Shown here: in pieces, positions 19,118 through 34,347 of the stretch
Layout of the letters: every line of letters starts with the position of its first letter
Position numbering within the stretch: position 1 is the stretch's first letter
Translations under genes and position numbers: made by a program
The notes under the pieces: model-generated
What the model saw: only the letters and a program-made list of their open reading frames with translations
What the model was told of the DNA's origin: nothing
Databases searched by the model: none
DNA from: Rhodobacterales bacterium
GTDB taxonomy: Bacteria; Pseudomonadota; Alphaproteobacteria; Rhizobiales; Stappiaceae
DNA length: 64,000 nt
Assembly (NCBI GenBank): GCA_008107755.1
Contig: VIRH01000072.1
Location: forward strand, 186,001 to 250,000
Direction of reading: 5' to 3'

Positions 19118-20908
19118 TCAGACGCTCTCCGCCACCAGATGCCGTTCACCGACATCCGTATAGCGCACGCGCTGGACGGTTCCTCCAATTGGCACGACGG
19201 GAGACGGAATATCGCCCATCGGCACTTCGAACATCTCGCGGCGGCGTGCAGGATCCGGGATCGGGACGGCGCGCATCAGCTTCTTCGTATAGGCGTGCTG
19301 TGGATTTTCGAAGATCTGCCGGCGGGTGCCCATTTCAACGATCTGGCCGAGATACATGACCGCAACCCGGTGCGACACCTGTTCGACGACTGCCATATCG
19401 TGGGAGATGAACAGATAGGCGAGCCCCATCTCGTCCTGCAATTCCTTCAGAAGATCCAGCACCTGGGCCTGCACCGACACATCGAGCGCAGAGACACTTT
19501 CATCGGCAATGATTGCCTTGGGTGCGAGCGCGAGCGCCCGGGCGATGCAGATGCGCTGGCGCTGGCCACCTGAAAACTCGTGCGGATGCCGTTTCATCTG
19601 GTCCGGGGTCAACCCCACCCTGCGGAAAAGTCCGGCAACCCGGTCCTGCAGGTCCTGCCCTTTCGCGATGCCGTGGATGATCAGAGGTTCACCGACCAGT
19701 TCGCCGACCGTCATGCGCGGATCGAGAGAGGCATAGGGGTCCTGGAAGACCATCTGGAGATCACGCCGAAAGGCCTTGTCACTCTGTGCGGTTCGGCTGT
19801 GCATGATGTGATGGCCGCCAACACGGATGGAGCCTTCCCAGGGGACGAGGTTCATCAGCGCCTTGCCGATCGTCGACTTGCCACAGCCGCTTTCGCCGAC
19901 AAGACCCAGGGTTTCGCCGCGCGACAGCTCGAAGGACACGCCTTCAACAGCATGAACGCGCGAGACCACCCGGTTGAGCGCGCCGCCCTTGAGGTCGAAG
20001 CGCACGGTCAGGTCATCAACTTCCAGCACCTTGGTGCCCGCACCGTCCGTCAGATGCGCATTGGCAGGATCTTTCCCCGCCATCGCCCCAAGCTTGGGAA
20101 CGGCCGCAAGCAGCTCTGCGGTGTAAGGATCGCGCGGCGCTGCGAACAGCGGCTTGACGGCATTGTCCTCCACGATCTTGCCCTGCTGCATGACGATCAC
20201 CCTGTCCGCCATCTCGGCAACGACACCCATGTCATGGGTGATCAGGATGATGGCCGTGCCGGTTTCCTTCTGCAGGTCACGCATCAGCTGCAGGATCTGC
20301 GCCTGGATCGTCACATCGAGTGCGGTGGTCGGTTCGTCGGCAATCAGCACCTTCGGGTGACAGGCCAGTGCCATGGCGATCATCACCCGCTGGCGCATAC
20401 CGCCGGAAAGCTCGTGCGGGTATTGCTTCAGTCGCCGTTCCGGCTCGGACAGCCGCACGGCCCGCATCGCCTCCAGAACGCGCTGCTGCGCCACACCGCG
20501 CGAGACAGGTTCATGCGCCAGCACGGCTTCGCGAAGCTGGCGACCGATGGTCAGAACCGGGTTGAGCGAGGTCATCGGCTCCTGGAATATCATGGCGATG
20601 TCGTCGCCGCGCACCGAACGCATCTCGCGTTCGCCGATCTTCGTCAGGTCACGATCGTCAAGGGTGATCTCGCCTTCGGCAACCTTCGCCATGGGTTCCG
20701 GCAGCAGCCCCATGATCGAGAGCGCCGTCATCGACTTGCCCGACCCGGACTCGCCCGCAATGCAGAGCGTCTCGCCTTCGTGCAGATCGAAACTCAGCCC
20801 GTCGACGACGAGCTTCTGCCCCTGCGGCGTCGCAACGGCTGTCTTCAGGTCGCGCACGCTGAGGACGGCCTTTCTGGTTGTGTCAAAATCTGGAGACGCA
20901 TCGATCAT
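19118..20908 (-). CDS. Fused dipeptide-type ABC transporter ATPase (DppD-DppF)
   Basis: A 596-residue cytoplasmic ATPase with two complete ABC domains. The first (about residues 15-260) has Walker [10 protein letters not shown], signature [10 protein letters not shown] and Walker [13 protein letters not shown]. The second (about 310-560) has [19 protein letters not shown] and [11 protein letters not shown]. GsiA-type fusions have this layout and drive DppB/DppC-type permeases. Start chosen at 20908 ([13 protein letters not shown]) because the further upstream frame runs into a palindromic repeat. It is the last gene of the amide operon, 246 bp after the formamidase gene with a repeat between, so co-transcription is plausible but not certain. 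Confidence 0.92.
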
Positions 20909-21012
20909 GCCGGACGAACCTTCGTAACTCTCAATTTCCACGCGTTTGGTCTTTCGCGCAGATCCCATTTTTGGAAAAAATGCCGTTCCGGTTTGCTCGA
21001 TTTGCACACACC

Positions 21013-21120
21013 ACCTCATCCTGAGGTGCGCAGCGAAGCGAAGCCTCGAAGGATGGGCGGCGAACTCGGTCGCGGCCGCCCAACCTTCGAGACAGGCCTT
21101 CGGCTTTCCTCAAGATGAGG
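21013..21120. repeat. Nested palindromic repeat, copy 2
   Basis: 108-bp copy of the element at 18963, in the same orientation. Outer arms are ACCTCATCCTGAGG (21013-21026) and CCTCAAGATGAGG (21108-21120). Inner arms are built on CTCGAAGGATGGGC near 21045 and GCCCAACCTTCGAG near 21078. The two copies bracket the dppDF gene. The right arms have drifted by single changes, so this copy is slightly less perfect. Confidence 0.8.
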
Positions 21121-21154: not shown

Positions 21155-22105
21155 TCAGTTCAGCACCACCTTCGGGAAGTAGAAGGACACCACCCAGTTC
21201 GGCTGATCGACGATTTCAGAAATCCTGAGATCGCCGCAGACCGAGCAGAGCATGTAAGCTTCCACAGCGCTGTAGTTGTGCCGCGCGCACAGGAGATCGA
21301 TCATGCCGGAGACCGCATCGCGCGCGCCCTCGAACAGATCCGTTCCAATGCCCGTGGTGACTTCGTAACCCATTTCGTCCAGATGCCGGGTCACCGGTCC
21401 GGGGGTCTCGAAGCGCGGCATCTTCAGGTTCGCACCCTTGATCAGGTCGAGTTCGACCACCGTGTTCATCGGGCTTTCGATCGCCGTGCCACAGACTTCG
21501 CCATCGCCCTGTGCCGCATGGGTATCGCCGATGGAGAACAGCGCACCCGCCACTTCGACAGGAAGATAGAGCGTCGTGCCCGCGGCAAGGTCCCGGATAT
21601 CGAGGTTGCCGCCGACCCGCCGGGGCGGAACGATGGAGTGCAGACCCGCTTCCGCCGGCGCAACGCCGATGGTGCCCGCGAAGGGCTTCAGCGGCACCTT
21701 GCCGAAGGGTGCGAAGGCGGACGTGCCGAGCGTGTCCTTGTCGTAGGACCAGACATGCAGCGCCGGCTCCTTGAACTGGTCCGCCAGCAATCCGAAACCG
21801 GGAATGTTCGCGGTCCAGCCGAAGCCGGAAGGCTTGAACTCGTGGATCTTGACCACGAGCGCGTCCCCCGGCTCGGCCCCATCCACGTAGATGGGACCGT
21901 TGACCGGATTGATCTTGCCGAAATCCATGTCGGCAACATCCTGAACCGTGCTCTCGGGGGTCAGCTGACCCGCGGAACTGTCAAGACATTCGAATTCCAG
22001 GATTGTACCCGGAGCCACCGTCTCGGTCGGGGCAAACGAGTTGTCCCAACCGAAATGGTGCTGTGCCGCATGGATGGTGTATGCGGCTTCGCACTTACTG
22101 CACAT
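21155..22105 (-). CDS. fmdA: Formamidase/acetamidase family protein
   Basis: A 316-residue cytosolic hydrolase of the FmdA/AmdA family, which releases ammonia from formamide, acetamide or similar short amides. Family motifs are FGKINPVNGPIYVDGAEPGD (about residues 61-80) and GDTHAAQGDGEVCGTAIE. Start chosen at 22105 (MCSKCEAAYTIHAAQHHFGW), which overlaps the binding-protein stop by 11 bp, so the two are translationally coupled. The longer in-frame extension lies wholly inside the upstream gene. AmiC/AmiR regulators and a Dpp-type importer in the same operon support an amide substrate taken up from outside. The exact amide is unproven. Confidence 0.88.
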   Translation of the reverse strand: MCSKCEAAYTIHAAQHHFGWDNSFAPTETVAPGTILEFECLDSSAGQLTPESTVQDVADMDFGKINPVNGPIYVDGAEPGDALVVKIHEFKPSGFGWTANIPGFGLLADQFKEPALHVWSYDKDTLGTSAFAPFGKVPLKPFAGTIGVAPAEAGLHSIVPPRRVGGNLDIRDLAAGTTLYLPVEVAGALFSIGDTHAAQGDGEVCGTAIESPMNTVVELDLIKGANLKMPRFETPGPVTRHLDEMGYEVTTGIGTDLFEGARDAVSGMIDLLCARHNYSAVEAYMLCSVCGDLRISEIVDQPNWVVSFYFPKVVLN

Positions 22106-23729
22106 CTTTCGCCCAAACGTAGTCGTAGTTGACGGGAATGTGGACCGGGTCGACGAAGATGGCATCGGGGCCACCCAGCCGGTCGGACCGCATGGTGAAA
22201 CGCTGTTCGTGGAAGACCGGCGCCCAGGCAGCATCGTCCATGACCGAGATGAAGATCTTGCGCCAGGCTTCCTCGCGCTCTTCCTTCTGGGCCGGGTCGG
22301 TCATGCTGTCTGCGGCAGTTGCCTGCTTGTCCAGCTCCTCGTTGCAGTACCAGGACCAGTTCCAGCCGCCCTTGACCGCGCCGTCGCAGCCGAGGATCGG
22401 GCCGTAGAAGTTTGACGGATCCGGGAAATCGGCGATCCACGCCATACCGCCGGACCAGATCATGGGAGCCTGGTCGGGCTCGCCGCCGGCGGCGATCACG
22501 TTGGCCTGAGCAAGCGACTTGATATCGGCCTTGATACCGATTTCGGCGAGATCGGCCTGGATGGACTGGGCGATACGCGGGTTCGGATCGGTGTTGTAGA
22601 CGTAGAGTTCGGTTTCGAACCCGTCGCCGAGACCCGCTTCCTCAAGCAGCTTCTTCGCCGCTTCCGGATCGTAGGGATAGCCTTCGTAGTCGTTGTCGTA
22701 GCCCGGCATGGACGGCGGCAGCGGCTGGTTCGCCGGAACCGCGCGACCGTTGATGATGCGCACGATACGGTCCTTGTTGATCGCCATGTTGACCGCCTTG
22801 CGGACTTCGAGCTTGTCGAAGGGCGGCATCTTGACGTTCATGGTGACATAACCGGTGTGCAGCTGACCACCCTCGATGATCATGTCCTTGTACTGCGGAT
22901 CCTTGGTCACCTCGAGGAACTTCGCCGGCGGAATGCCGTCGCCCGGAATGTCGGCCTCACCGCGCTGCAGACGCAGAAGGGCGACCACCGGCTCCTGACC
23001 GACCTCGAAGGTGATCTGGTCGAGCTTCGGCACGCCGTCACGCCAATAGTCTTCGTTGCGCGTGAAGATCAGGTGCTGACCGAGGGTCCAGTCCTCCAGC
23101 TCGAACGCACCGGTACCGACAGGGTGCTTGCCGAAATCGGCGCCCCATTCCTCGACAGCTTCCTTCGGCACGATGGAAGAGAAGTTGATGGCCATGACAT
23201 GAAGGAAGGTCGCGTCCGGACGGGACAGCTCGATCTTCACCGTGTAGGGGTCGACGACCGTCACGCCCTCAAGCGTTTCGCTCTCGCCGGAAGCGACGGC
23301 ATCATAGCCCTTGATGGAACCGAAGAAACCGGCCCCCGGGCTCTGGGTCTTCGGATTGGTCACGCGCTCCAGCGAATATTTCACGTCATCGGCCGTCATT
23401 TCCCGGCCGTTGTGAAACTTCACGCCTTCGCGCAGCTTGAAGGTGAAGGTCTTGCCGTCGTCGGAGATCGTGTAGTCCTCGGCAAGATCGTTCATCAGGT
23501 TCGTGGTGCCGGGCTCATAATCCATCAGGCCGTCGAACAGGCTCTTGATCATCGACCAGTTCTGCCAGTCGTAACCGATGGCCGGGTCGAGGGTGGAGAC
23601 GTCATCCTTGTAGGTGACGATCATCGAGCCACCCTGCTTGATGTCATCCGCGAGCGCGGGAACGACCATGGTCGCGAGCGCCGTTGCGCCAAGAAGGGCC
23701 GCTGCCCCTGCCAATACTGTCTTCTTCAT
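22095..23729 (-). CDS. Dipeptide/oligopeptide-type ABC transporter substrate-binding protein
   Basis: A 544-residue periplasmic protein of the SBP_bac_5 (DppA/OppA) family. Start chosen at 23729 (MKKTVLAGAAALLGATALAT) with GGAGG upstream; it has a classical Sec signal peptide cleaved near ALA. Family landmarks are DVSTLDPAIGYDW, KFHNGREMTADDVKYSLERV and PYTVKIELSRPDATFLHVMA. It lies between the permease dppB (74 bp upstream, with a stem-loop in the gap) and the formamidase gene (overlapping). Its ligand is probably an amide or an amide-containing compound rather than a peptide, judged from the operon. Confidence 0.9.
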   Translation of the reverse strand: MKKTVLAGAAALLGATALATMVVPALADDIKQGGSMIVTYKDDVSTLDPAIGYDWQNWSMIKSLFDGLMDYEPGTTNLMNDLAEDYTISDDGKTFTFKLREGVKFHNGREMTADDVKYSLERVTNPKTQSPGAGFFGSIKGYDAVASGESETLEGVTVVDPYTVKIELSRPDATFLHVMAINFSSIVPKEAVEEWGADFGKHPVGTGAFELEDWTLGQHLIFTRNEDYWRDGVPKLDQITFEVGQEPVVALLRLQRGEADIPGDGIPPAKFLEVTKDPQYKDMIIEGGQLHTGYVTMNVKMPPFDKLEVRKAVNMAINKDRIVRIINGRAVPANQPLPPSMPGYDNDYEGYPYDPEAAKKLLEEAGLGDGFETELYVYNTDPNPRIAQSIQADLAEIGIKADIKSLAQANVIAAGGEPDQAPMIWSGGMAWIADFPDPSNFYGPILGCDGAVKGGWNWSWYCNEELDKQATAADSMTDPAQKEEREEAWRKIFISVMDDAAWAPVFHEQRFTMRSDRLGGPDAIFVDPVHIPVNYDYVWAKDVQ

Positions 23730-23771
23730 TGCTAAAACCTCCGGTTCAGGTGTGATTGCCGGGATGCTCTG

Positions 23772-23800
23772 GCGGCATCTTGGTCCGGTACAGATGCCGC
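23772..23800 (-). other. Intercistronic stem-loop between dppB and binding-protein genes
   Basis: Perfect 9-bp stem GCGGCATCT (23772-23780) / AGATGCCGC (23792-23800) with an 11-nt loop, inside the 74-bp gap. It could protect or define the 5' end of a processed binding-protein message. No U-run follows. Confidence 0.5.
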
Positions 23801-23803
23801 GCA

Positions 23804-24724
23804 TCAACGCAGCTTGATCCTGGGATCAATGAGGGGGGCGATCATGTCGGCCAGAAAGTTGCCGAGCACGATCGCGAAGGCGGACACGAGCGTGACGCCC
23901 ATGATGATGGGAATGTCGACCCGCTGGATGGCCTGCCAGGCAAGCTGGCCGATACCCGGCCAGCCAAAGACGCTCTCCACCACGACGATGCCGCTCATGA
24001 AGAGGCCGATATCGATCCCGATCATGGCGATGATGGGCAGCAGGGCGTTCGGCATGGCATGCCCGAACAGGACCTGCCAACGCTTGAGACCCTTGGCTCT
24101 TGCCGTGCGGATGAAGTCCTGACGCAGCACATCGATCATCGACGAGCGCATCATGCGCGAATACCAGCCCGCCCCGAGAAACCCGAGTGTCAGCGACGGC
24201 AGCACCATGTGCATGAAGGTGCCGTAGCCGCCGATCGGGAACCAGCCGAGCTGCACGGAAAAGACGTAGAGCAGCAGAATGCCGATCACGAACTGGGGCG
24301 ACGATACGCCGACGAAGGACAGCACCATCAGGCTGGTGTCGGTCGCCGAGTTGCGCCGCAGGGCAGCGACCAGCCCCATTGTCAGGCCGAGAACAAGCTC
24401 GCAGACGATCGCCCCCAGCATGAGCAGAAGCGTCGCCGGCAGCCGTGACGCGATCAGCGCGCCGACTTCCGTCTTCTGCAGGTAGGAGCGGCCGAGGTCT
24501 CCCTGGATCAACCCGGTGAGATAGCGGAAATACTGCTGATAGAACGGCAGGTTCAGACCCAGCTGTTCGCGGATGTTCTCGACTGTCTGGACGGTCGCGC
24601 TGCGGCCGGCGATCTGCCGTGCAGGGTCGGCCGGGATCAGGTAGAGCAGAACAAAGGTCAGGAAGGAGATGCCGATGAGGATCAGCACCGACTGCAACAC
24701 GCGGCGCACTACATAGCTGCCCAT
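23804..24724 (-). CDS. Dipeptide-type ABC transporter permease DppB-like
   Basis: A 306-residue inner-membrane permease. It begins with the family-typical MGSYVVRRVLQSVLILIGIS, followed by FVLLYLIPADPARQIAG. The coupling loop is DFIRTARAKGLKRWQVLFGH, the EAA motif that docks onto the ATPase. Six hydrophobic helices fit the family. It lies 3 bp after dppC and precedes the binding-protein gene. Gene order dppC-dppB is reversed from the usual dppB-dppC. Confidence 0.92.
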   Translation of the reverse strand: MGSYVVRRVLQSVLILIGISFLTFVLLYLIPADPARQIAGRSATVQTVENIREQLGLNLPFYQQYFRYLTGLIQGDLGRSYLQKTEVGALIASRLPATLLLMLGAIVCELVLGLTMGLVAALRRNSATDTSLMVLSFVGVSSPQFVIGILLLYVFSVQLGWFPIGGYGTFMHMVLPSLTLGFLGAGWYSRMMRSSMIDVLRQDFIRTARAKGLKRWQVLFGHAMPNALLPIIAMIGIDIGLFMSGIVVVESVFGWPGIGQLAWQAIQRVDIPIIMGVTLVSAFAIVLGNFLADMIAPLIDPRIKLR

Positions 24725-24727
24725 GGC

Positions 24728-25627
24728 TCAGTGCCTCCCCTTCTGCGTCGGATCGAGAACCTCGCGCAAGGCATCCCCCAGGAGATTGAAGCCGAGCGCG
24801 AGCGCGATGATGGCAACGCCGGGAAAGAACACCAGCCAAGGCGCCGACGTGAAATAGGTCTGGTTCTCGTAGATGATGTTGCCCCAGGACGGGGTCGGCG
24901 GCTGGACGCCGATGCCGAGATAGCTGAGCGTCGCCTCCAGCAGGACCGTCGTCGAAATGCCGAGCGTGCCGAACACGAGGATCGAGGACAGGAGATGCGG
25001 CAGAATGTGCTTGACGAGGATGCGCGGCGTGCTCGCCCCCATGGAGCGCTCGGCCGTGATGAACTCCCGCTCCGACAGCGACCTTGTTTCCGTATAGACG
25101 ACGCGCGCCATCTGCACCCAGTTCACCATGGCAATCACCATGGCGACGATCCAGAGCGACGGCCGGAACAGTGCCGCCAGCGTGATCGCCAGAAGAAGCG
25201 CGGGAAACGCCATCATCAGGTCCGTGAAGCGCATCAGCACCGTTTCGACCCAGCCCCGGAAAAACCCGGCGAGCGTTCCGACCAGGGCCCCGAAGACGGC
25301 CGCGACACCGTTGGCGACGACGCCGATCACGAGCGATGTCTGGGCACCGTAGATGAGCCGCGACAGGAGATCCCGTCCGAGCAGATCCGTGCCCAGCCAG
25401 AAGTGCGGCCCGGGCGGCAGCGGCGCGCCTTCCAGGGTCAGCCCGTCGAAGAACTGTTCGTTCGGGTCGAACGGAGCCACGAGCGGCGCCAGCAGGGCGG
25501 CACCCACGATCATGGTGATGAGCACGAGCGCAAACAGCGCCAGCTTTCGCTCCAGAAGTCGCCTCAGGGCGCCCTTGTCGACAGCGACGGGTTCGGCCCG
25601 TTCCACGAGGGGATCAGTCACACTCAT
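24728..25627 (-). CDS. Dipeptide-type ABC transporter permease DppC-like
   Basis: A 299-residue permease with the N-terminal OppC_N region (LLERKLALFALVLITMIVGA). The family mark is HFWLGTDLLGRDLLSRLIYG and the EAA loop is REFITAERSMGASTPRILVK. It ends LGFNLLGDALREVLDPTQKG, typical of DppC. The start overlaps the amiR stop as ATGA, which ties the sensor/antiterminator pair to the transporter in one transcript. It forms the membrane channel with DppB. Confidence 0.92.
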   Translation of the reverse strand: MSVTDPLVERAEPVAVDKGALRRLLERKLALFALVLITMIVGAALLAPLVAPFDPNEQFFDGLTLEGAPLPPGPHFWLGTDLLGRDLLSRLIYGAQTSLVIGVVANGVAAVFGALVGTLAGFFRGWVETVLMRFTDLMMAFPALLLAITLAALFRPSLWIVAMVIAMVNWVQMARVVYTETRSLSEREFITAERSMGASTPRILVKHILPHLLSSILVFGTLGISTTVLLEATLSYLGIGVQPPTPSWGNIIYENQTYFTSAPWLVFFPGVAIIALALGFNLLGDALREVLDPTQKGRH

Positions 25628-26235
25628 TCTCTTCCCTGTTTACGCTCAGGGGTCTGGCCGCCGATCTGCGCCACAAGCGCATCGGCGGCATCTTCGACCG
25701 ACACACGCCCGGTCATGGCAAGCGAACGCAGATGCCCGTAAGCCTCGCCGGAAGTGCATTTGTGCAGGTCCATCAGCAACACCACGGCTTCCACGACATT
25801 GGGCCGGCGGGCGAGACGGGATTCCAGATCGGCAATCCGGTCTGTCGCGGCTCGGCTGGTCTGGAACGAGCGAACCGCAACGACCAGCGCGCCGAAAACC
25901 CCGGTCGAACCAATCGGTTTTCCAAGATGCGCGCCCGCACCTCGCTGGATGGCCCACTCGACCCGGCCCGGCGCTTCCGAACCGATGAGTGCAACCATCG
26001 GCATTGGCTGGTCGCTCTGGGGCCAGGGAAACTGTTCCTCATGCCCCATGTCAGCGTCGAACAGGATGATGTCGGAGCTACGATGCTCTGCGGACAGCTC
26101 CGGCCAGACGCACTCGACCTCCATGCCGAACCGCTCAAGCTGACGCGTCAGCCGATCGAGATCCGGATGCGGTCGATGCAGGACGACCGCTTTCCAGCCT
26201 CTGAAGTTCGGGGTCTGGAACGACTTCAGCCTCAT
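25624..26235 (-). CDS. amiR: AmiR-like ANTAR-domain antiterminator
   Basis: A 203-residue protein with a degenerate receiver-like N-terminal domain (WKAVVLHRPHPDLDRLTRQL, DIILFDADMG) and a C-terminal ANTAR RNA-binding domain. The ANTAR part shows VVEAVVLLMDLHKCTSGEAY followed by GHLRSLAM. ANTAR proteins bind twin-hairpin RNA motifs and stop formation of leader terminators. The gene overlaps amiC (4 bp) and dppC (4 bp). By analogy with the Pseudomonas amidase operon, AmiC would hold AmiR inactive until an amide binds. A candidate target leader is at 27479-27556. Confidence 0.85.
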   Translation of the reverse strand: MRLKSFQTPNFRGWKAVVLHRPHPDLDRLTRQLERFGMEVECVWPELSAEHRSSDIILFDADMGHEEQFPWPQSDQPMPMVALIGSEAPGRVEWAIQRGAGAHLGKPIGSTGVFGALVVAVRSFQTSRAATDRIADLESRLARRPNVVEAVVLLMDLHKCTSGEAYGHLRSLAMTGRVSVEDAADALVAQIGGQTPERKQGRE

Positions 26236-27425
26236 TTGACCACCCTCAAAAAGCCGTGATCACGCGGCCGAGGTCCTTTCGCGGACCGGTCGCTGTTCAG
26301 ATTGACGAGATAGGGATCGGGTGCCAGCCGGTGCGCCTGCGGGTTCAGGATGCGAAACTGCGGTTGGCGCGGCTCGCCATTGGCCACTCCCTCCACGACA
26401 CCGATGAAGGGCGTCAGGGTGGCGTGCTGCGTGTTGCGGTCGATCAGCAATTCGCCGGCCGGCGTCGGCACCCCTGTGGTGGTCAGGAAATCGCGCACCG
26501 CGTCGGGCTCATCGGTGCCGCAGGCCTCGATCGCCAGCGCCAGTGCCCAGACGGCCTGATAAGGGCCGGTGAACATGGCCGAAACACCGACATCCCTGCC
26601 GCGCACGTCGTGCATGCGCCTGACGAGATCCGAATTGCCCGGAAAATCTGCCGTTTCGAAATAGGAGGCGGTGGAAATCACGCCATTGGCCGCGGTGCCG
26701 ATGATCGGCAGCTCCGCCTCGGTCAGATTGCAGCTCAGGACAGGCATGACCTCGGGCCGGAAATCCGGCTCTGCGAGCGCGAGGTCCCTGAGCGCCCGCA
26801 AAAAGGCATAGCTGCTGACGCCGATGAGATTGTTGAAGATGAAATCGGGACGCGTCGTCCGGATCTCGTTGATCAGATGGCCGATCTCGACATCGCCCAG
26901 AGCGACGTATCGTTCGCCGAGGACCGCGCCGTCCTCGGCTGCCAGAAGCTCGCGGGCGATCCGGTTCATCTCCCAGCCCCAGATATAGTTGGACCCGAGC
27001 AGAAAGGCGCGCTTGCCGTATTCGGGAATGATCTTGTGAAACAGCGGCACGACGTTCTGGTTCGGGCAGGCGCCCGAATAGATGACGCGGTCGTGGCTTT
27101 CAAAGCCCTCATAGGGGATCGCATACCAGAGCAGCCCCTGGTGTCGTTCGAGGACGGGAAGAAGTTCCTTGCGGCTCCAGGATGTCTGACAGCCGACGAT
27201 ATGCCGGCAGCCGGCTTCCGCCATCATCTGCTGGGCAAGGACCGCATATTGCTCCGCCTTGCCGGCCGGGTCTGCAGGAACCGCCCGGAGCTGGAAGTCG
27301 AACCGGTCGGAAGCATTGACTTCCTGAATGGCAATGGTGGCACCGTCCAGGGACTCGCGCCCTATTACCGAGTAGGAACCGGTATTCGAATAAAGCACGC
27401 CAATCGGATGCTCCATCTTCGCCAT
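26232..27425 (-). CDS. amiC: AmiC-like amide-sensing negative regulator
   Basis: A 397-residue protein with the Liv-type periplasmic-binding fold but no signal peptide, so it should stay in the cytoplasm like Pseudomonas AmiC (about 385 residues). It begins MAKMEHPIGVLYSNTGSYSV; other family-like blocks are QTSWSRKELLPVLERHQGLL and GSNYIWGWEMNRIARELL. An ATG nine bases in (27416) is an alternative start. It overlaps amiR by 4 bp and heads the operon. It probably binds a short amide and releases AmiR. A ligand-binding FmdD/UrtA-like role is less likely without a leader peptide. Confidence 0.85.
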   Translation of the reverse strand: MAKMEHPIGVLYSNTGSYSVIGRESLDGATIAIQEVNASDRFDFQLRAVPADPAGKAEQYAVLAQQMMAEAGCRHIVGCQTSWSRKELLPVLERHQGLLWYAIPYEGFESHDRVIYSGACPNQNVVPLFHKIIPEYGKRAFLLGSNYIWGWEMNRIARELLAAEDGAVLGERYVALGDVEIGHLINEIRTTRPDFIFNNLIGVSSYAFLRALRDLALAEPDFRPEVMPVLSCNLTEAELPIIGTAANGVISTASYFETADFPGNSDLVRRMHDVRGRDVGVSAMFTGPYQAVWALALAIEACGTDEPDAVRDFLTTTGVPTPAGELLIDRNTQHATLTPFIGVVEGVANGEPRQPQFRILNPQAHRLAPDPYLVNLNSDRSAKGPRPRDHGFLRVVK

Positions 27426-27478: not shown

Positions 27479-27556
27479 AAAAAAACCCCGACCTGCGGCC
27501 AGCTGTGGGCACACAATGGATCGGGGCGCATTTGCCGTGCGGCTATCGGTTGCCGC
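27479..27556 (-). promoter_or_regulatory. Candidate ANTAR-type antitermination leader with intrinsic terminator
   Basis: Read on the minus strand, hairpin 1 is GCGGC-N8-GCCGC (27556-27539; loop AACCGAUA). Hairpin 2 is GGC-AAAUGC-GCC (27536-27525). A terminator then has stem CCCCGA (27526-27521) / UCGGGG (27491-27486) followed by seven U (27485-27479). The 3' side of hairpin 2 overlaps the 5' side of the terminator stem, so the two exclude each other. The U-run ends 53 nt before the amiC start. This geometry matches ANTAR leaders. The loop consensus (A1, G4) is only partly met, and hairpin 2 is short. Confidence 0.55.
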
Positions 27557-27564
27557 TATGTCGA

Positions 27565-27598
27565 CTATTAGGATTGCCGAAGATAAAATCCTTGTCAA
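27565..27598 (-). promoter_or_regulatory. Possible amiC operon promoter
   Basis: On the minus strand TTGACA (27598-27593) is a perfect -35 box. The -10 is poor: AATCCT at 17-bp spacing, or TAATAG at 22 bp. Transcription from here would begin just before hairpin 1 of the leader. Confidence 0.35.
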
Positions 27599-28082: not shown

Positions 28083-28108
28083 ACCAATCAGAATTGGTTC
28101 GAATTGGT
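28083..28108. promoter_or_regulatory. ATTGGT operator cluster before the GntR gene
   Basis: ACCAAT (28083-28088) and ATTGGT (28093-28098) form a perfect inverted repeat, and AATTGGT recurs at 28102-28108, exactly 10 bp after the first AATTGGT (28092-28098). FadR-type regulators such as PdhR and LldR recognise ATTGGT half-sites. The cluster touches the start codon, so autoregulation is likely. Confidence 0.55.
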
Positions 28109-28820
28109 ATGCTCATGATAGAAACCGAGAAGCCATCGCAGCGGAATTCGAGCCTGGCGCTGGAGCGCCTTCGGATCATCGTCGACCAGCTCTCGGCGGA
28201 AGGTGTCGACCAGCTTCCAACGGAACGCGAACTCTCCGAAACCATCGGCGTCGGTCGGCGGGCGGTTCGGCGCGCGCTGGAAGTCCTTGAAGCCGAAGAC
28301 AAGATCTGGCGCCGTCAGGGCGCCGGCACCTTCATCGGCAGCGCGCCTTCCCGGCCGGATCAGCAGCTTCTTTCCCTTCATGAAAACTCCAACATGCTGG
28401 AGGTCATGGAAGTCCGCCTGCAGTTGGAACCGGCGCTCGCCCGGCTCGCCGCGCTGCGCGCCACGTCGTCGGATATCGCTTCCATGCGCGATCTGGCTGC
28501 CAAGGTGGCGAAGGCCGGCGACATGGACAGCCGCGAGCTGTGGGACAGCGCCCTGCACCGCTCCATCGCCCGCGCGGCCAAGAACGCGCTTTATCTTGCC
28601 CTTTTCGATGTGGTTGACCGGGTCCGACAGGACTCCGCCTGGCGGCATGTGCGCGAGGCCGTGCGCACCAGGGACGCGATCAAGCTCTACCGGTCGCAGC
28701 ATGTCGACATCATCACCGCCATCGAGACCCGCGATCCGCTGAAGGCGGAACGGGCCATGCGCGCGCACCTGATGGCCCTCCAGGAGCGCCTTCTCTATCA
28801 CAGCGAGAGCGAGACCAGCG

Positions 28821-28831
<11 letters not shown>
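28109..28831 (+). CDS. GntR-family transcriptional regulator, FadR/FCD type (third copy)
   Basis: A 240-residue regulator. The winged helix is GVDQLPTERELSETIGVGRR followed by AVRRALEVLEAED, and RRQGAGTFIG is the wing. The C-terminal part is an FCD helical domain ending AIETRDPLKAERAMRAHLMA. Start at ATG 28109, with ATG 28115 an alternative; both follow the ATTGGT operator cluster. It overlaps the dppD gene by 11 bp and leads that operon. It is less similar to the other two GntR proteins, which share the PHSTDC block that this one lacks. Confidence 0.88.
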
Positions 28832-29830
<999 letters not shown>

Positions 29831-29834
<4 letters not shown>

Positions 29835-30931
29835 GAATTCCGACCGCAGACCGGATCATCGAAACCCGTTCGCTCACCCGCCGCTTCGCAGGCAAGACCG
29901 GCCTTTTCCGGGCGACGACCTTCGTCAGCGCGGTAAACGAGGTGTCGCTCGAAATCCGCCGCGGCGAAACCTTTTCCATCGTTGGGGAAAGCGGATGCGG
30001 AAAGTCGACCCTTGCCCGCCTGCTGGTGCGTCTGCTGCAGCCGAGCGAAGGCTCGGTCCTCTATGAGGGCAACGACATCTCGACCCTTTCGGAAGGGGAC
30101 GTCCGGCGCCTGCGCAAGGATCTTCAGTTCGTCTTCCAGGATCCCTTTTCCTCCCTCAACCCGCGCATGACGGTCGGGGCCCTGATCGAGGAACCGATGA
30201 GGGTGCACACCAGACTTTCGCGCACCGAACGCCGGCGCAAGGTTGCCGAGCTTCTGTCGAAGGTCGGTCTGCGCCCGGCCTTCGCCAACCGGTATCCGCA
30301 TGAGTTCTCCGGTGGTCAGCGCCAGCGCATCGGCATCGCCCGCGCGCTTGCCAGCGGCCCGAAGATAATCGTCGGCGACGAGCCGGTCTCCGCCCTTGAT
30401 GTTTCGGTTCAGGCCCAGGTGATCAACCTGCTGGAAGACCTGAAGTCCGAATTCGATCTCACCCTGATCCTGATCGCACACGATCTGGCGGTCATCCGCC
30501 ACATGAGCGACCGCGTGGCGGTGATGTATCTGGGGGAAATCGTCGAACTCGCGCCCAATGACGCGCTGTTCGACAAGCCGCTTCATCCCTACACCCGAGC
30601 CCTGATGCGCGCGATCCCGATCGCCTCACCCCACGGCCGGACGATGGACGCAACGCTGACCGGCGATGTTCCTTCGCCCCTTGCACCACCATCAGGCTGC
30701 CGCTTTCACCCGCGCTGCCCTCACGCGACCGATCTGTGCAGCGCGCAGAAACCGGCAGCGACGGAGGCCGGGGATGGCCGAATGGTCGCCTGCCACCACT
30801 GGCAGAAGATTGCAGAAATCCCGGAGGTCTTCGCCCAGGAGCCTCCGCGCAACCAGACTGCGGCAAAGCGCTTCGCGCTTTTCCGCGAGCGAAGTCAACA
30901 AAAAGAGCCGACCACGGCCGCCAGCAAATGA
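29831..30931 (+). CDS. Dipeptide-type ABC transporter ATPase DppF-like
   Basis: A 366-residue ATPase. The start at 29831 (MRIPTADRIIETRSLTRRFA) overlaps the dppD stop as ATGA. Motifs are Walker [10 protein letters not shown], signature [10 protein letters not shown] and Walker [13 protein letters not shown], with a C-terminal Cys motif SGCRFHPRCPHATDLC. It pairs with the upstream DppD-like protein. About 50 residues beyond the Cys motif are rich in Pro, Arg and Lys and probably disordered. The binding-protein gene follows after 26 bp. Confidence 0.93.
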
Positions 30932-30957
30932 AGACCATTCTCAGAGGAGCAAACAGA

Positions 30958-32463
30958 ATGCGAACCAAACTCCTGACCGCGCTACTACTCGGCGCGTCGA
31001 CCCTCGCATCGGCGGCAAGCGCCGCGGACCTGCGCATCGGCCTTCAGGACGATGCAGACGTACTCGATCCCGATCAGTCCCGGACCTTTGTCGGCCGCAT
31101 CGTCTACACGTCCCTGTGTGACAAGCTCGTCGACATCACGCCCGACCTTGAGATCATCCCGCAGCTCGCCACCGGCTGGACCTGGTCGGAAGACGGCAAG
31201 ACCCTGACCATGGACCTGCGTGAGGGCGTCACCTTCCATGACGGAACGCCCTTCGACGCGGAAGCGGTAAAGGCCAACATTGAGCGGTCCAAGACACTTC
31301 CGGAAAGCCGTCGCAAGAGCGAAGTCAAATCCATCGACACCGTCGAGGTGACCGGCCCGCTGCAGGTCAAGATGACATTGACCGGACCGGATGCGACCCT
31401 TCTGGCCCAGTTCGCCGATCGCGCTGGCATGATGATTTCGCCGACAGCCGCCGAGGAAGCCGGCGTGGATTTTGGCGCCAAGCCGGTCTGCTCGGGTCCG
31501 TTCAAGTTCGTCGAGCGCGTCCAGCAGGACCGGATCGTGCTTGAGAAGTTCCCCGAATACTGGAATGCGGATGCGATCAATTTCGACACCGTGACCTTCC
31601 TGCCGATCCCGGACACAACCGTGCGCCTCGCCAACCTTCGCTCGGGCGACATCGACATGCTGGAACGTCTGGCGGCAACGGACGTCTCCTCCGTCAAGGG
31701 TGACGACAGTCTGGGATATGCAGAAGCCGTCAGCCTCGGTTACCAGGGCATCACCGTGAACCTCAACAACGGCGAGCGCGGTGACAATCCCTTCGGAAAC
31801 GACCCGAAGATCCGTCAGGCCTTCAACCTGTCGATCGATCGCGATGCCATCAACCAGGTGGTCTTCGAAGGGGCTTTTGCACCCGGCAACCAGCCTTTCC
31901 CGCCGACCAGCCCCTGGTACGACAAGGACCATCCGGTCCCGGCTCGCGATGTCGAAAAGGCCAAGGCTCTCCTGAAGGAAGCCGGCTATGACAGCCTCGA
32001 CGTCGAGGTTCAGGTCGCGAACAACCCGGTCCAGACCCAGATGATGCAGGTCGTGCAGTCCATGGCGGCTGAAGCCGGCTTCAATGTCAAACTGAAGGCC
32101 ATGGAATTCGCCAGCCTTCTGGCGGACCAGAGCGCCGGCAACTATACCGCCAGCCAGGTTGGTTGGTCCGGCCGTGTCGACCCGGACGGCAACATCCACC
32201 AGTTCATGACCTGCAAGGGCGGTATCAACGACAGCAAGGTCTGCATTCCGGAAGTCGACAAGCTTCTGGACGAAGCCCGCCAGAGCAACGATACCGCGAC
32301 CCGCAAGGAAAAATACGACGCGGCAAGGGATATCCTGATCGAGCAACTGCCGATCATCTATCTCTACCACCCGACCTGGATCTGGGCGTTGTCCGGTGAA
32401 CTGGAAGGGTTCACGCCCTACCCGGACGGCATGATCCGCCTGGAAAACGTCAAGCTCAAGTAA
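30958..32463 (+). CDS. Dipeptide/oligopeptide-type ABC transporter substrate-binding protein
   Basis: A 501-residue SBP_bac_5 protein with a Sec signal peptide (MRTKLLTALLLGASTLASAA, cleavage near SAA). Start at 30958 with AGAGGAG upstream. Landmarks are DDADVLDPDQSRTFVGRIVY, TFHDGTPFDAEAVKANIERS and IDRDAINQVVFEGAFAPGNQ. Two Cys residues late in the protein (FMTCKGGINDSKVCIP) may form a disulfide. It lies between dppF and the permeases. The ligand may be a gamma-glutamyl compound or other small amide, given the GGT-family gene at the operon end. Confidence 0.92.
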   Translation: MRTKLLTALLLGASTLASAASAADLRIGLQDDADVLDPDQSRTFVGRIVYTSLCDKLVDITPDLEIIPQLATGWTWSEDGKTLTMDLREGVTFHDGTPFDAEAVKANIERSKTLPESRRKSEVKSIDTVEVTGPLQVKMTLTGPDATLLAQFADRAGMMISPTAAEEAGVDFGAKPVCSGPFKFVERVQQDRIVLEKFPEYWNADAINFDTVTFLPIPDTTVRLANLRSGDIDMLERLAATDVSSVKGDDSLGYAEAVSLGYQGITVNLNNGERGDNPFGNDPKIRQAFNLSIDRDAINQVVFEGAFAPGNQPFPPTSPWYDKDHPVPARDVEKAKALLKEAGYDSLDVEVQVANNPVQTQMMQVVQSMAAEAGFNVKLKAMEFASLLADQSAGNYTASQVGWSGRVDPDGNIHQFMTCKGGINDSKVCIPEVDKLLDEARQSNDTATRKEKYDAARDILIEQLPIIYLYHPTWIWALSGELEGFTPYPDGMIRLENVKLK

Positions 32464-32475
32464 GCCACATCGACA

Positions 32476-32503
32476 GCGGGGTCCGGCATCAGCCGGGCTC
32501 CGC
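32476..32503 (+). other. Intercistronic stem-loop after binding-protein gene
   Basis: 12-bp stem GCGGGGTCCGGC (32476-32487) / GCCGGGCTCCGC (32492-32503), fully paired if two G-U pairs are allowed, with loop ATCA. It sits 12 bp after the binding-protein stop and before dppB, with no U-run. Confidence 0.6.
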
Positions 32504-32524
32504 GCCAGATCGGATATCGCCAGA

Positions 32525-33472
32525 ATGCTGTCCTATATCGCGCGCCGGCTCCTGATCGCCGTACCCACGCTTATCCTCGTCTCGATCTTCGTGTTCGTGC
32601 TGCAGAAGCTGCTGCCCGGCGACCCCGCGCTCGTGCTTGCGGGCGAAGAAAGGGATCCGGAGATGCTGGAGTTCATCCGCGAAAAGTACCGTCTCAACGA
32701 CCCGATCATCTATCAGTACGTCTACTGGGTGAAGGCAATGCTGCAGGGCGACCTCGGCGTTTCGCTGCGCACCGGCCAGCCGGTCACACAGCTGATTGCC
32801 GACAAGCTGCCCGTCACCATCCAGCTTGCCTTCATGGCCATGATCATCGCCTTCGTGGTCGGCATTCCCGCCGGCATCCTCTCCGCCGTCCGCAAGGGTA
32901 CGGCCGTCGATTATGTCGCCAACTTCGTTGCGCTGTCCGGCCTTTCGATTCCCAATTTCTGGCTCGGCATCATGCTGATCATGCTGGTCTCGGTTCACCT
33001 CGGCTGGCTGCCCGCCTCGGGCTACGAGAGCCCGTTCGTTGATCCGGTGCGCTCCTTCGAGACCATGATCATGCCCGCTTTCGTCCTGGGCACAGCACTT
33101 GCCGCAACCCTGATGCGGCACACCCGCTCAGCCATGCTCGGCGTCATGAAGGCCGACTACGTGCGCACGGCCAGGGCCAAGGGCCTGCTGGAGCATGTGG
33201 TTGTGCTCAAACACGCATTTCGCAATGCCCTGCTACCCATCGTCACGCTCAGCGCGCTGCTCTTCGGCGAGCTCCTGGCAGGCGCGGTCCTGACCGAACA
33301 GATCTTCACCATCCCCGGCTTCGGCAAGCTGATCGTCGATGCGGTCTTCACCCGTGACTATGCCGTGGTACAGGGGATCGTCCTTTGCACGGCAGCCGGC
33401 TTCATCCTGATGAATCTCATCGCCGACATCCTTTACTTCCTTCTCAATCCCCGCATGAGGAGCAGCCTGTGA
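32525..33472 (+). CDS. Dipeptide-type ABC transporter permease DppB-like
   Basis: A 315-residue permease starting MLSYIARRLLIAVPTLILVS, with FVLQKLLPGDPALVLAG typical of DppB. The EAA loop is DYVRTARAKGLLEHVVVLKH. It ends with a helix and a short basic tail (NPRMRSSL). It lies 61 bp after the binding-protein gene, with a strong stem-loop in the gap, and overlaps dppC (GTGA). Confidence 0.93.
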   Translation: MLSYIARRLLIAVPTLILVSIFVFVLQKLLPGDPALVLAGEERDPEMLEFIREKYRLNDPIIYQYVYWVKAMLQGDLGVSLRTGQPVTQLIADKLPVTIQLAFMAMIIAFVVGIPAGILSAVRKGTAVDYVANFVALSGLSIPNFWLGIMLIMLVSVHLGWLPASGYESPFVDPVRSFETMIMPAFVLGTALAATLMRHTRSAMLGVMKADYVRTARAKGLLEHVVVLKHAFRNALLPIVTLSALLFGELLAGAVLTEQIFTIPGFGKLIVDAVFTRDYAVVQGIVLCTAAGFILMNLIADILYFLLNPRMRSSL

Positions 33473-34347
33473 GCGCCGCGACCACCGCCGCCGAGCCGGC
33501 AGAAGACATCATCCAGCACGAAAGCCGCGCCTGGAAGAAACTGAAGACTAACAAGAGCGCCCTGTTCGGTTTCGTCATCGTCATCTTCTTCATCGTCATC
33601 GCCATCGCCGCGCCGATCCTGCCGATACCCGATCCCGCCGCCACGGACTGGGGCGCGGTGCGCAAGCCCCCGTCCGCCGCCCATTGGCTCGGCACGGACG
33701 AGATCGGCCGGGATATCCTGTCGAGGATGATCTGGGGGGCGCAGGCGTCATTGCTGGCAGGTGTCGTATCCGTCTTCATCGCCGTCCTGATCGGCGTGCC
33801 CTTCGGGCTCCTCTCAGGCTACTTCGGCGGCTGGACGGATCAGGCGATCTCCCGCGTCACGGACGCCCTGCTGGCAACGCCCTTCCTGATCCTGGCGATC
33901 GCCCTCGCCGCCTTTCTCGGACCGAGCCTCACGAATGCGATGCTCGCCATCGGCCTGTCGGCGATGCCCATTTTTGTCCGTCTCACTCGCGGGCAGGTGC
34001 TTGCGGTCAAGACGGAGGACTACGTCGAAGGCGCGCGCGCCGTCGGTCTGACCCATGTCGCGATCATGGCCCGATATATCCTGCCCAACGTCTTTGCTCC
34101 CGTTCTGGTTCAGGCGACGCTGACCGTCGCCACCGCGATCATTGCGGAAGCCAGCCTTTCCTTTCTCGGCCTCGGCCAGCAACCTCCGGCGCCAAGCTGG
34201 GGGTCGATGCTGAACGTCGCCAAGAACTTCATGGAACAGGCACCCTGGATGGCATGGTGGCCGGGGGCCGCGATCTTCCTGGTCGTACTCGGTTTCAACC
34301 TTCTCGGCGACGGCCTGCGCGACGCGCTCGACCCGCATGAAAGCTGA
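33469..34347 (+). CDS. Dipeptide-type ABC transporter permease DppC-like
   Basis: A 292-residue permease. The likely start is GTG 33469 (VSAATTAAEPAEDIIQHESR), which overlaps the dppB stop as GTGA; an upstream in-frame ATG lies inside dppB. Family marks are HWLGTDEIGRDILSRMIWG, EDYVEGARAVGLTHVAIMAR and the end LGFNLLGDGLRDALDPHES. It forms the channel with the DppB-like protein upstream. Confidence 0.92.
   Translation: MSAATTAAEPAEDIIQHESRAWKKLKTNKSALFGFVIVIFFIVIAIAAPILPIPDPAATDWGAVRKPPSAAHWLGTDEIGRDILSRMIWGAQASLLAGVVSVFIAVLIGVPFGLLSGYFGGWTDQAISRVTDALLATPFLILAIALAAFLGPSLTNAMLAIGLSAMPIFVRLTRGQVLAVKTEDYVEGARAVGLTHVAIMARYILPNVFAPVLVQATLTVATAIIAEASLSFLGLGQQPPAPSWGSMLNVAKNFMEQAPWMAWWPGAAIFLVVLGFNLLGDGLRDALDPHES

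Follow-up and report, generated by a model that had tools for sequence, protein, structure and literature searches.

The minus strand of the window (the whole 64,000-nt stretch of DNA analysed) carries an operon that opens with a homologue of the amide-sensing regulator AmiC and contains the following genes:

26232..27425, minus strand: amiC, homologue of the amide-sensing regulator AmiC (Peripla_BP_5, 8.8e-96; solved AmiC 1pea, 3.5e-48)
25624..26235, minus strand: amiR, ANTAR antiterminator (AmiR_N, 7.8e-14; ANTAR, 6.7e-11; solved AmiR 1qo0, 5.4e-9)
24728..25627, minus strand: Opp/Dpp-type ABC permease, OppC-like (Pfam)
23804..24724, minus strand: Opp/Dpp-type ABC permease, OppB-like (Pfam)
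22095..23807, minus strand: SBP_bac_5 substrate-binding protein, start codon provisional (Pfam)
21155..22234, minus strand: FmdA_AmdA formamidase/acetamidase, start codon provisional (Pfam, 3.1e-59)
19118..21019, minus strand: double ABC ATPase, OppDF-like (Pfam)

The start codon of amiC is the ATG at 27425. An initial annotation of this DNA stated that the operon encodes its own AmiR-like ANTAR protein, and the domains bear this out: a protein with an AmiR_N pseudo-receiver and an ANTAR domain is encoded next to the AmiC homologue, as in an AmiR-AmiC pair. Judging from AmiC and the FmdA-type enzyme, the signal for the operon would be an amide. Outside the window's family, too, amiC is followed by amiR, two permeases and SBP_bac_5, according to the ORF layout of 11 loci and Pfam matches for nine proteins of five loci. 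The genome itself belongs to the Stappiaceae and is most likely a Roseibium, since the amiC loci of three genomes of its genus show identity values equal to those of the R. aggregatum, R. limicola and R. aestuarii records. Beside the ami operon, at 28094-34347 of the window, a divergent gene for an FCD-type GntR regulator heads a second Opp-type transporter cluster, whose ATPases, substrate-binding protein and permeases were assigned by reading, without Pfam.

Upstream of amiC lies a 120-nt leader (27598-27479) with these elements:

27593..27598, minus strand: -35 box TTGACA (read from the sequence; TTGAC in relatives)
27570..27575, minus strand: weak -10 element AATCCT, 17-nt spacer after TTGACA (sequence and inference)
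27539..27556, minus strand: hairpin P1, GCGGC[AACCGATA]GCCGC, with arms GCGGC (27556-27552) and GCCGC (27543-27539) and loop AACCGATA (folds; covariation in 30 leaders)
between P1 and P2, minus strand: linker AC, 2 nt (sequence)
27525..27536, minus strand: hairpin P2, the candidate antiterminator, GGC[AAATGC]GCC, with arms GGC (27536-27534) and GCC (27527-27525) and loop AAATGC (fold of the shortened transcript; conservation)
27486..27526, minus strand: intrinsic terminator hairpin, with arms CCCCGATC (27526-27519) and GGTCGGGG (27493-27486) (folds; covariation)
27479..27485, minus strand: seven T (U in RNA) of the terminator (sequence)

The U run ends about 53 nt upstream of amiC, and transcription would start near 27563. 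The initial annotation had described a TTGACA box, two hairpins and a terminator with seven U, and every one of these is in place. It had also proposed that the second hairpin and the terminator exclude each other; bases 27526-27525 are indeed common to the 3′ arm of P2 and the 5′ arm of the terminator, so the two structures are mutually exclusive. The -10 element is poor. A consensus promoter scan does not report the leader promoter, a consensus terminator scan reports one site at the leader versus 1.1 expected in shuffles, and neither scan of the leader region gives an excess over shuffles.

The full leader folds as P1 followed by the terminator (z -2.15; 4 of 200 shuffles equally good), as does an 82-nt form (-34.4 kcal/mol, z -2.29). 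A transcript that ends before the 3′ arm of the terminator folds instead as P1 and P2, with a further short helix closing the structure (-14.7 kcal/mol). The whole and the shortened leader thus have alternative predicted folds, which makes a co-transcriptional switch plausible. Taken by parts, the terminator region reaches z -2.73 (equalled by 1 of 200 shuffles), and P1+P2 by themselves reach z -0.86 (46 of 200), which does not set them apart from shuffles. By itself, the single leader sequence is only modestly unusual. An alternative pairing for P2, CGCA/TGCG, was judged by eye and discarded, since relatives such as L005 and L095 disrupt it and retain GGC/GCC. A scan of the 64-kb window against Rfam brings no family to its gathering score; a permissive scan gives an NsiR1 match to the leader that stays below threshold (E 0.014; 23.8 bits where 39 are required), which we attribute to chance and which comes from the terminator.

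The case for the leader being more than a chance arrangement is comparative and comes from conservation, covariation and the TTGAC box. The comparison set consisted of 80 loci with an amiC homologue together with the amiR loci of 87 genomes of the family (39 with a match), from which we cut 104 upstream regions, species duplicates among them. The motif GGC-A-N5-GCC is present in 98 of these 104 regions versus 3.2% of 5050 dinucleotide-preserving shuffles, and P2 overlapping a terminator in 95 of the 104 versus 0.08% of these shuffles. In 92 of 99 leaders P2 is preceded, at a distance of 30-90 nt, by a TTGAC, and amiR adjoins amiC at all 100 loci examined. For a loop census, L103 to L107 were dropped from the 104 and 47 non-redundant leaders were taken out of the remaining 99; a fixed rule finds P1 in 32 of the 47, and the 15 without it are mostly from Rhodobacter relatives. 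The absence of a conserved hairpin pair in related genomes, which the initial annotation had named as the outcome that would count against it, did not occur, given the 95 regions with P2 and terminator and the 32 leaders with P1.

The nine regions in which the overlapping terminator was missed are of several kinds. L007 and L103 come from Breoghania, and the L103 region is also too short. L075, L077 and L083 have the GGC-A-N5-GCC motif, with the terminator rule unsatisfied; L104 has amiC and amiR, yet no such leader was found there; and L105-L107 have another AmiR type, with leaders downstream of amiR. As a separate observation, both Breoghania loci show an in-frame stop in amiR, a fragmented amiC match and a degenerate leader terminator; this copy of the ami locus is apparently decaying.

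Covariation was measured in an alignment of 30 leaders chosen for having P2. P1 and P2 jointly show 22 double-change cells versus 6.4 in shuffles, and their covariation score is 0.225 versus 0.062; none of 500 shuffles was as high on either count, and slid versions of the pairing score at most 0.101. All of this covariation is supplied by P1, each of whose five pairs changes on both sides somewhere in the 30 leaders. For the terminator, 25 double-change cells were found versus 10.2 in shuffles (0/500 as high), with five of eight pairs changed on both sides, although the count of pair types is no better than in shuffles (334/500). The three pairs of P2 are invariant. Because these pairs do not vary and the leaders were chosen by P2, the alignment is unable to prove P2 pairing. 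One compensatory case comes from L179, a leader found by covariance model, in which P2 is AGC/GCT and not the usual GGC/GCC; covariation backs the predicted P2 hairpin through this case only.

A covariance model built from the 30 leaders (R1) has one significant match in the window's genome, which is the window leader, itself a training sequence (2.4e-15; next match 0.48). R1 has matches at 0.01 or better in 32 of 297 genomes of the order, and the 13 best matches all lie directly upstream of amiC. Thirty R1 loci were examined: 18 matches are upstream of amiC, some of them being training sequences or near-copies (e.g., L157, L162, L169), four are upstream of flgE, and eight are without assignment. 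As a stand-in for the published ANTAR model we built a second model (R2) from 12 of 15 dual-hairpin leaders belonging to other AmiR types and NasT, leaving out L148, L151 and the second leader of L106, which were misaligned. R2 found a non-training leader at L147 (7.9e-7), in the same genome as the training leader L124, and its insignificant matches overlap the leaders of L008 (E 1.6) and L019 (E 4.3). It missed the window leader. R2 is a narrow model that failed, too, on the leaders of L151 and L148 kept out of its training, so that its silence on the window leader is weak evidence; this silence agrees with the possibility that the leader is a variant motif.

The published definition of an ANTAR target, as excerpted from PMC3369931 and PMC8164766, calls for two hexaloops with A1 and G4 in each, and the linker is set at 2-25 nt in the latter. 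The window leader has two stem-loops of at least 3 bp (P1 5 bp, P2 3 bp), a linker of 2 nt and a distal stem that overlaps the intrinsic terminator at 27525-27526. Its P2 loop has six nucleotides and its P1 loop eight, and neither AACCGATA nor AAATGC shows the A1/G4 pattern. As the definition demands two A1/G4 hexaloops, the window leader falls outside it despite the equal architecture. The initial annotation had cautioned that the loop match was incomplete; that caution was right, and the mismatch is systematic. Across the 47 non-redundant leaders, the P2 loop has A1 in all (in L050, L075 and L089 the A was demanded by the search), G4 in none and G5 in 36. Among the 18 amiC-linked model matches, A1 is present in 17 (L167 has T) and G4 again in none. 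In the 32 leaders with P1, its loop measures 4-9 nt, most commonly seven and exactly six in four leaders, with G4 in 15 and A1 in 10; the linker is 2 nt in 27. The P1 of L011 (CGAA/TTCG) is weak. The comparison gives good support to a leader of the AmiR antitermination type, one that departs from the published ANTAR RNA definition.

Leaders without P1 were compared with ten leaders that have it by fitting promoters, with starts inferred, to the 15 P1-less leaders and L080. In L080, P1 (GATA/TATC) overlaps the inferred -10; the census includes this hairpin among its 32 of 47, and the promoter fit and the tree treat it as absent. For these 16 leaders the distance from the fitted start to P2 is 7-22 nt (at most 15 nt in seven, 17-22 nt in nine); for the ten with P1 it is 18-26 nt, and P1 sits close to the very 5′ end. 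The stretch transcribed before P2 has no predicted pairing in 13 of the 16 and weak pairing in three. That P1 was lost because transcription starts too near P2 fits seven of the 16; the other nine have as much room as some leaders with P1. P1 may therefore lack room in some leaders and be simply gone in others, a reading that is a lead and not proof because the promoter positions are inferred. On a tree of AmiC for 45 of the 47 leaders (L081 and L007 left out), P1 absence needs five changes versus 12.9 in shuffles. A single branch of 20 rows, made up of Rhodobacter relatives, holds 13 of the 15 P1-less rows together with seven rows that have P1 by the rule; the other two P1-less rows (L100, L020) lie outside it.

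A more far-reaching proposal, to which we give somewhat less than an even chance, is that this clade of AmiR proteins recognises another loop code, with A1 and G5 in P2 in place of A1/G4, and that many Rhodobacter-type leaders antiterminate by a single hairpin, P1 being absent. If this were true, neither the dual hairpin nor A1/G4 would be general for ANTAR proteins. According to one structural study, a single hexaloop is the minimal ANTAR binding motif (PMC8934654), and the same source claims that the ANTAR dimer must contact each hexaloop in turn to prevent termination (PMC8934654). The leaders described here form a natural series for one regulator type (32 of 47 with P1, 15 without, and the loop G moved by one place), which makes the dual-hexaloop requirement directly testable. 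They also suggest that such targets would escape searches that rely on A1/G4 hexaloops.

The window's genome encodes three ANTAR proteins. A second AmiC-AmiR system (L150) has its leader downstream of amiR and in front of a carbon-nitrogen hydrolase gene; its P1 is GCGGC[AGGGGT]GCCGC and its P2 loop AGGTTC. The third is a NasS-NasT system (L151), in which a receiver-ANTAR protein is accompanied by NMT1-type neighbours, a nitrate ABC ATPase and NirB, and whose leader has P1 loop ATTGCC and P2 loop AAAGCC. Both leaders resemble that of the window in having a dual hairpin, an overlapping terminator and a GGC/GCC core in P2. Unlike the window loops, the two P1 loops and the NasT P2 loop fit A1/G4; the L150 P2 loop has A1 but not G4. 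Canonical A1/G4 loops and shifted loops coexist in this genome, and loop sequence may keep its ANTAR systems apart.

Further leaders were seen elsewhere. At L106 (2051-2248) and L107 (2025-2228), two tandem leaders, each with dual hairpin and terminator, follow the amiR of another AmiR type. At L147 (1354-1430), urease genes directly follow a dual-hairpin leader of the second AmiR type, an arrangement that suggests AmiC-AmiR control of urease there.

A look-alike leader occurs upstream of the flagellar hook gene flgE in a Bradyrhizobium-like genus, g11 (L174, L176, L178, L190, L196-L214). At most of these loci GGC-AATTGTT-GCC is followed by GGC-A.....-GCC overlapping a terminator. A model match is present somewhere in 69 of 98 g11 genomes, and flgE is downstream at all 23 g11 loci checked, 21 of them at 111-121 nt, with L203 and L214 cut by contig ends; the flgE genes are of two types, about 60% alike. 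Four g11 genomes were searched for ANTAR proteins, and three have one each and the fourth two. Linkage to amiC was not detected for the g11 look-alike, so such hairpins are not exclusive to AmiR. Among the matches listed in the open-access literature, neither an alphaproteobacterial amiC leader nor this flgE leader is described.

The main guess of the initial annotation, an AmiR-type antitermination leader, is supported by the comparison through the AmiR and AmiC domains, the overlap of P2 with the terminator, and conservation. On sequence comparison we put the probability at roughly 0.88 that the window leader is an AmiR-controlled antitermination leader of the amide-uptake/formamidase operon. 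A plain attenuator is improbable; here the 5′ UTR would contain a terminator that is constitutive or lets some transcription through, and its hairpins would stabilise the RNA without AmiR binding. The poor match of the loops to the ANTAR rule speaks for it, as does single-sequence folding just modestly better than shuffles, but such an attenuator would need neither a GGC-A-N5-GCC hairpin whose 5′ GGC lies outside the terminator, a motif that 98 of the 104 regions contain but just 3.2% of shuffles, nor the linked amiR that adjoins amiC in 100 of 100 loci.

That the leader is read by a metabolite-binding riboswitch or by another RNA-binding protein, such as NasT or the second AmiR of the genome, is very improbable. 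The genome does have three ANTAR proteins, with the GGC/GCC core shared by the P2 stems of the other two leaders, and a similar hairpin pair precedes flgE in the Bradyrhizobium-like genus; against this, the window has no Rfam match at gathering score, the best R1 matches are tied to amiC-amiR loci, and loop sequences differ among the three systems of the genome. Ribosome-mediated attenuation, in which translation of a short ORF would choose between hairpins, is hardly credible: an ORF does begin at the ATG in the P2 loop (27531), but many P2 loops have no ATG (e.g., ATTCGC, AACCGC, AATTGC) and keep the hairpin, and we reject the leader peptide because this ATG is not conserved.

Under AmiR-controlled antitermination, RNA polymerase would by default start near 27563, P1 and then the terminator would form, and transcription would stop at the U run. 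Following the precedent of Pseudomonas aeruginosa, an amide or related ligand would bind AmiC and AmiR would be released. The freed AmiR would meet P1 at the 5′ end and hold P2 (GGC-A.....-GCC) closed, presumably by binding the loops. Because P2 occupies two bases of the terminator 5′ arm, the terminator would be unable to form, and the operon would be transcribed, amiC and amiR included, with positive feedback as the result.

One of the closest known systems is the amiE leader of P. aeruginosa. As described in PMC3369936 and PMC3369931, it shares with the window leader an AmiC-AmiR pair, P1, P2, a terminator overlapped by P2 and an amide operon. The P. aeruginosa leader precedes the amidase gene amiE, whereas that of the window precedes amiC, in an operon that also encodes an Opp-type transporter and an FmdA-type enzyme; A1 and G4 are described for both hairpin loops of the P. 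aeruginosa leader (PMC3369936), in contrast to those of the window. The eutP leader of Enterococcus faecalis, with EutV, likewise has a dual hairpin whose P2 stem overlaps the terminator, according to excerpts of PMC3369931 and PMC8934654. The eut leaders are described there with linkers of 5-12 nt and A1/G4 hexaloops, compared with a 2-nt linker, an 8-nt P1 loop and G5 in P2 in the window. On the protein side, Y166 and M174 of the window's AmiR align with a tyrosine and a methionine in 6wsh, a solved chain of EutV type, and would correspond to Tyr164 and Met172 of the EutV paper if, as we assume, the 6wsh chain is numbered two higher.
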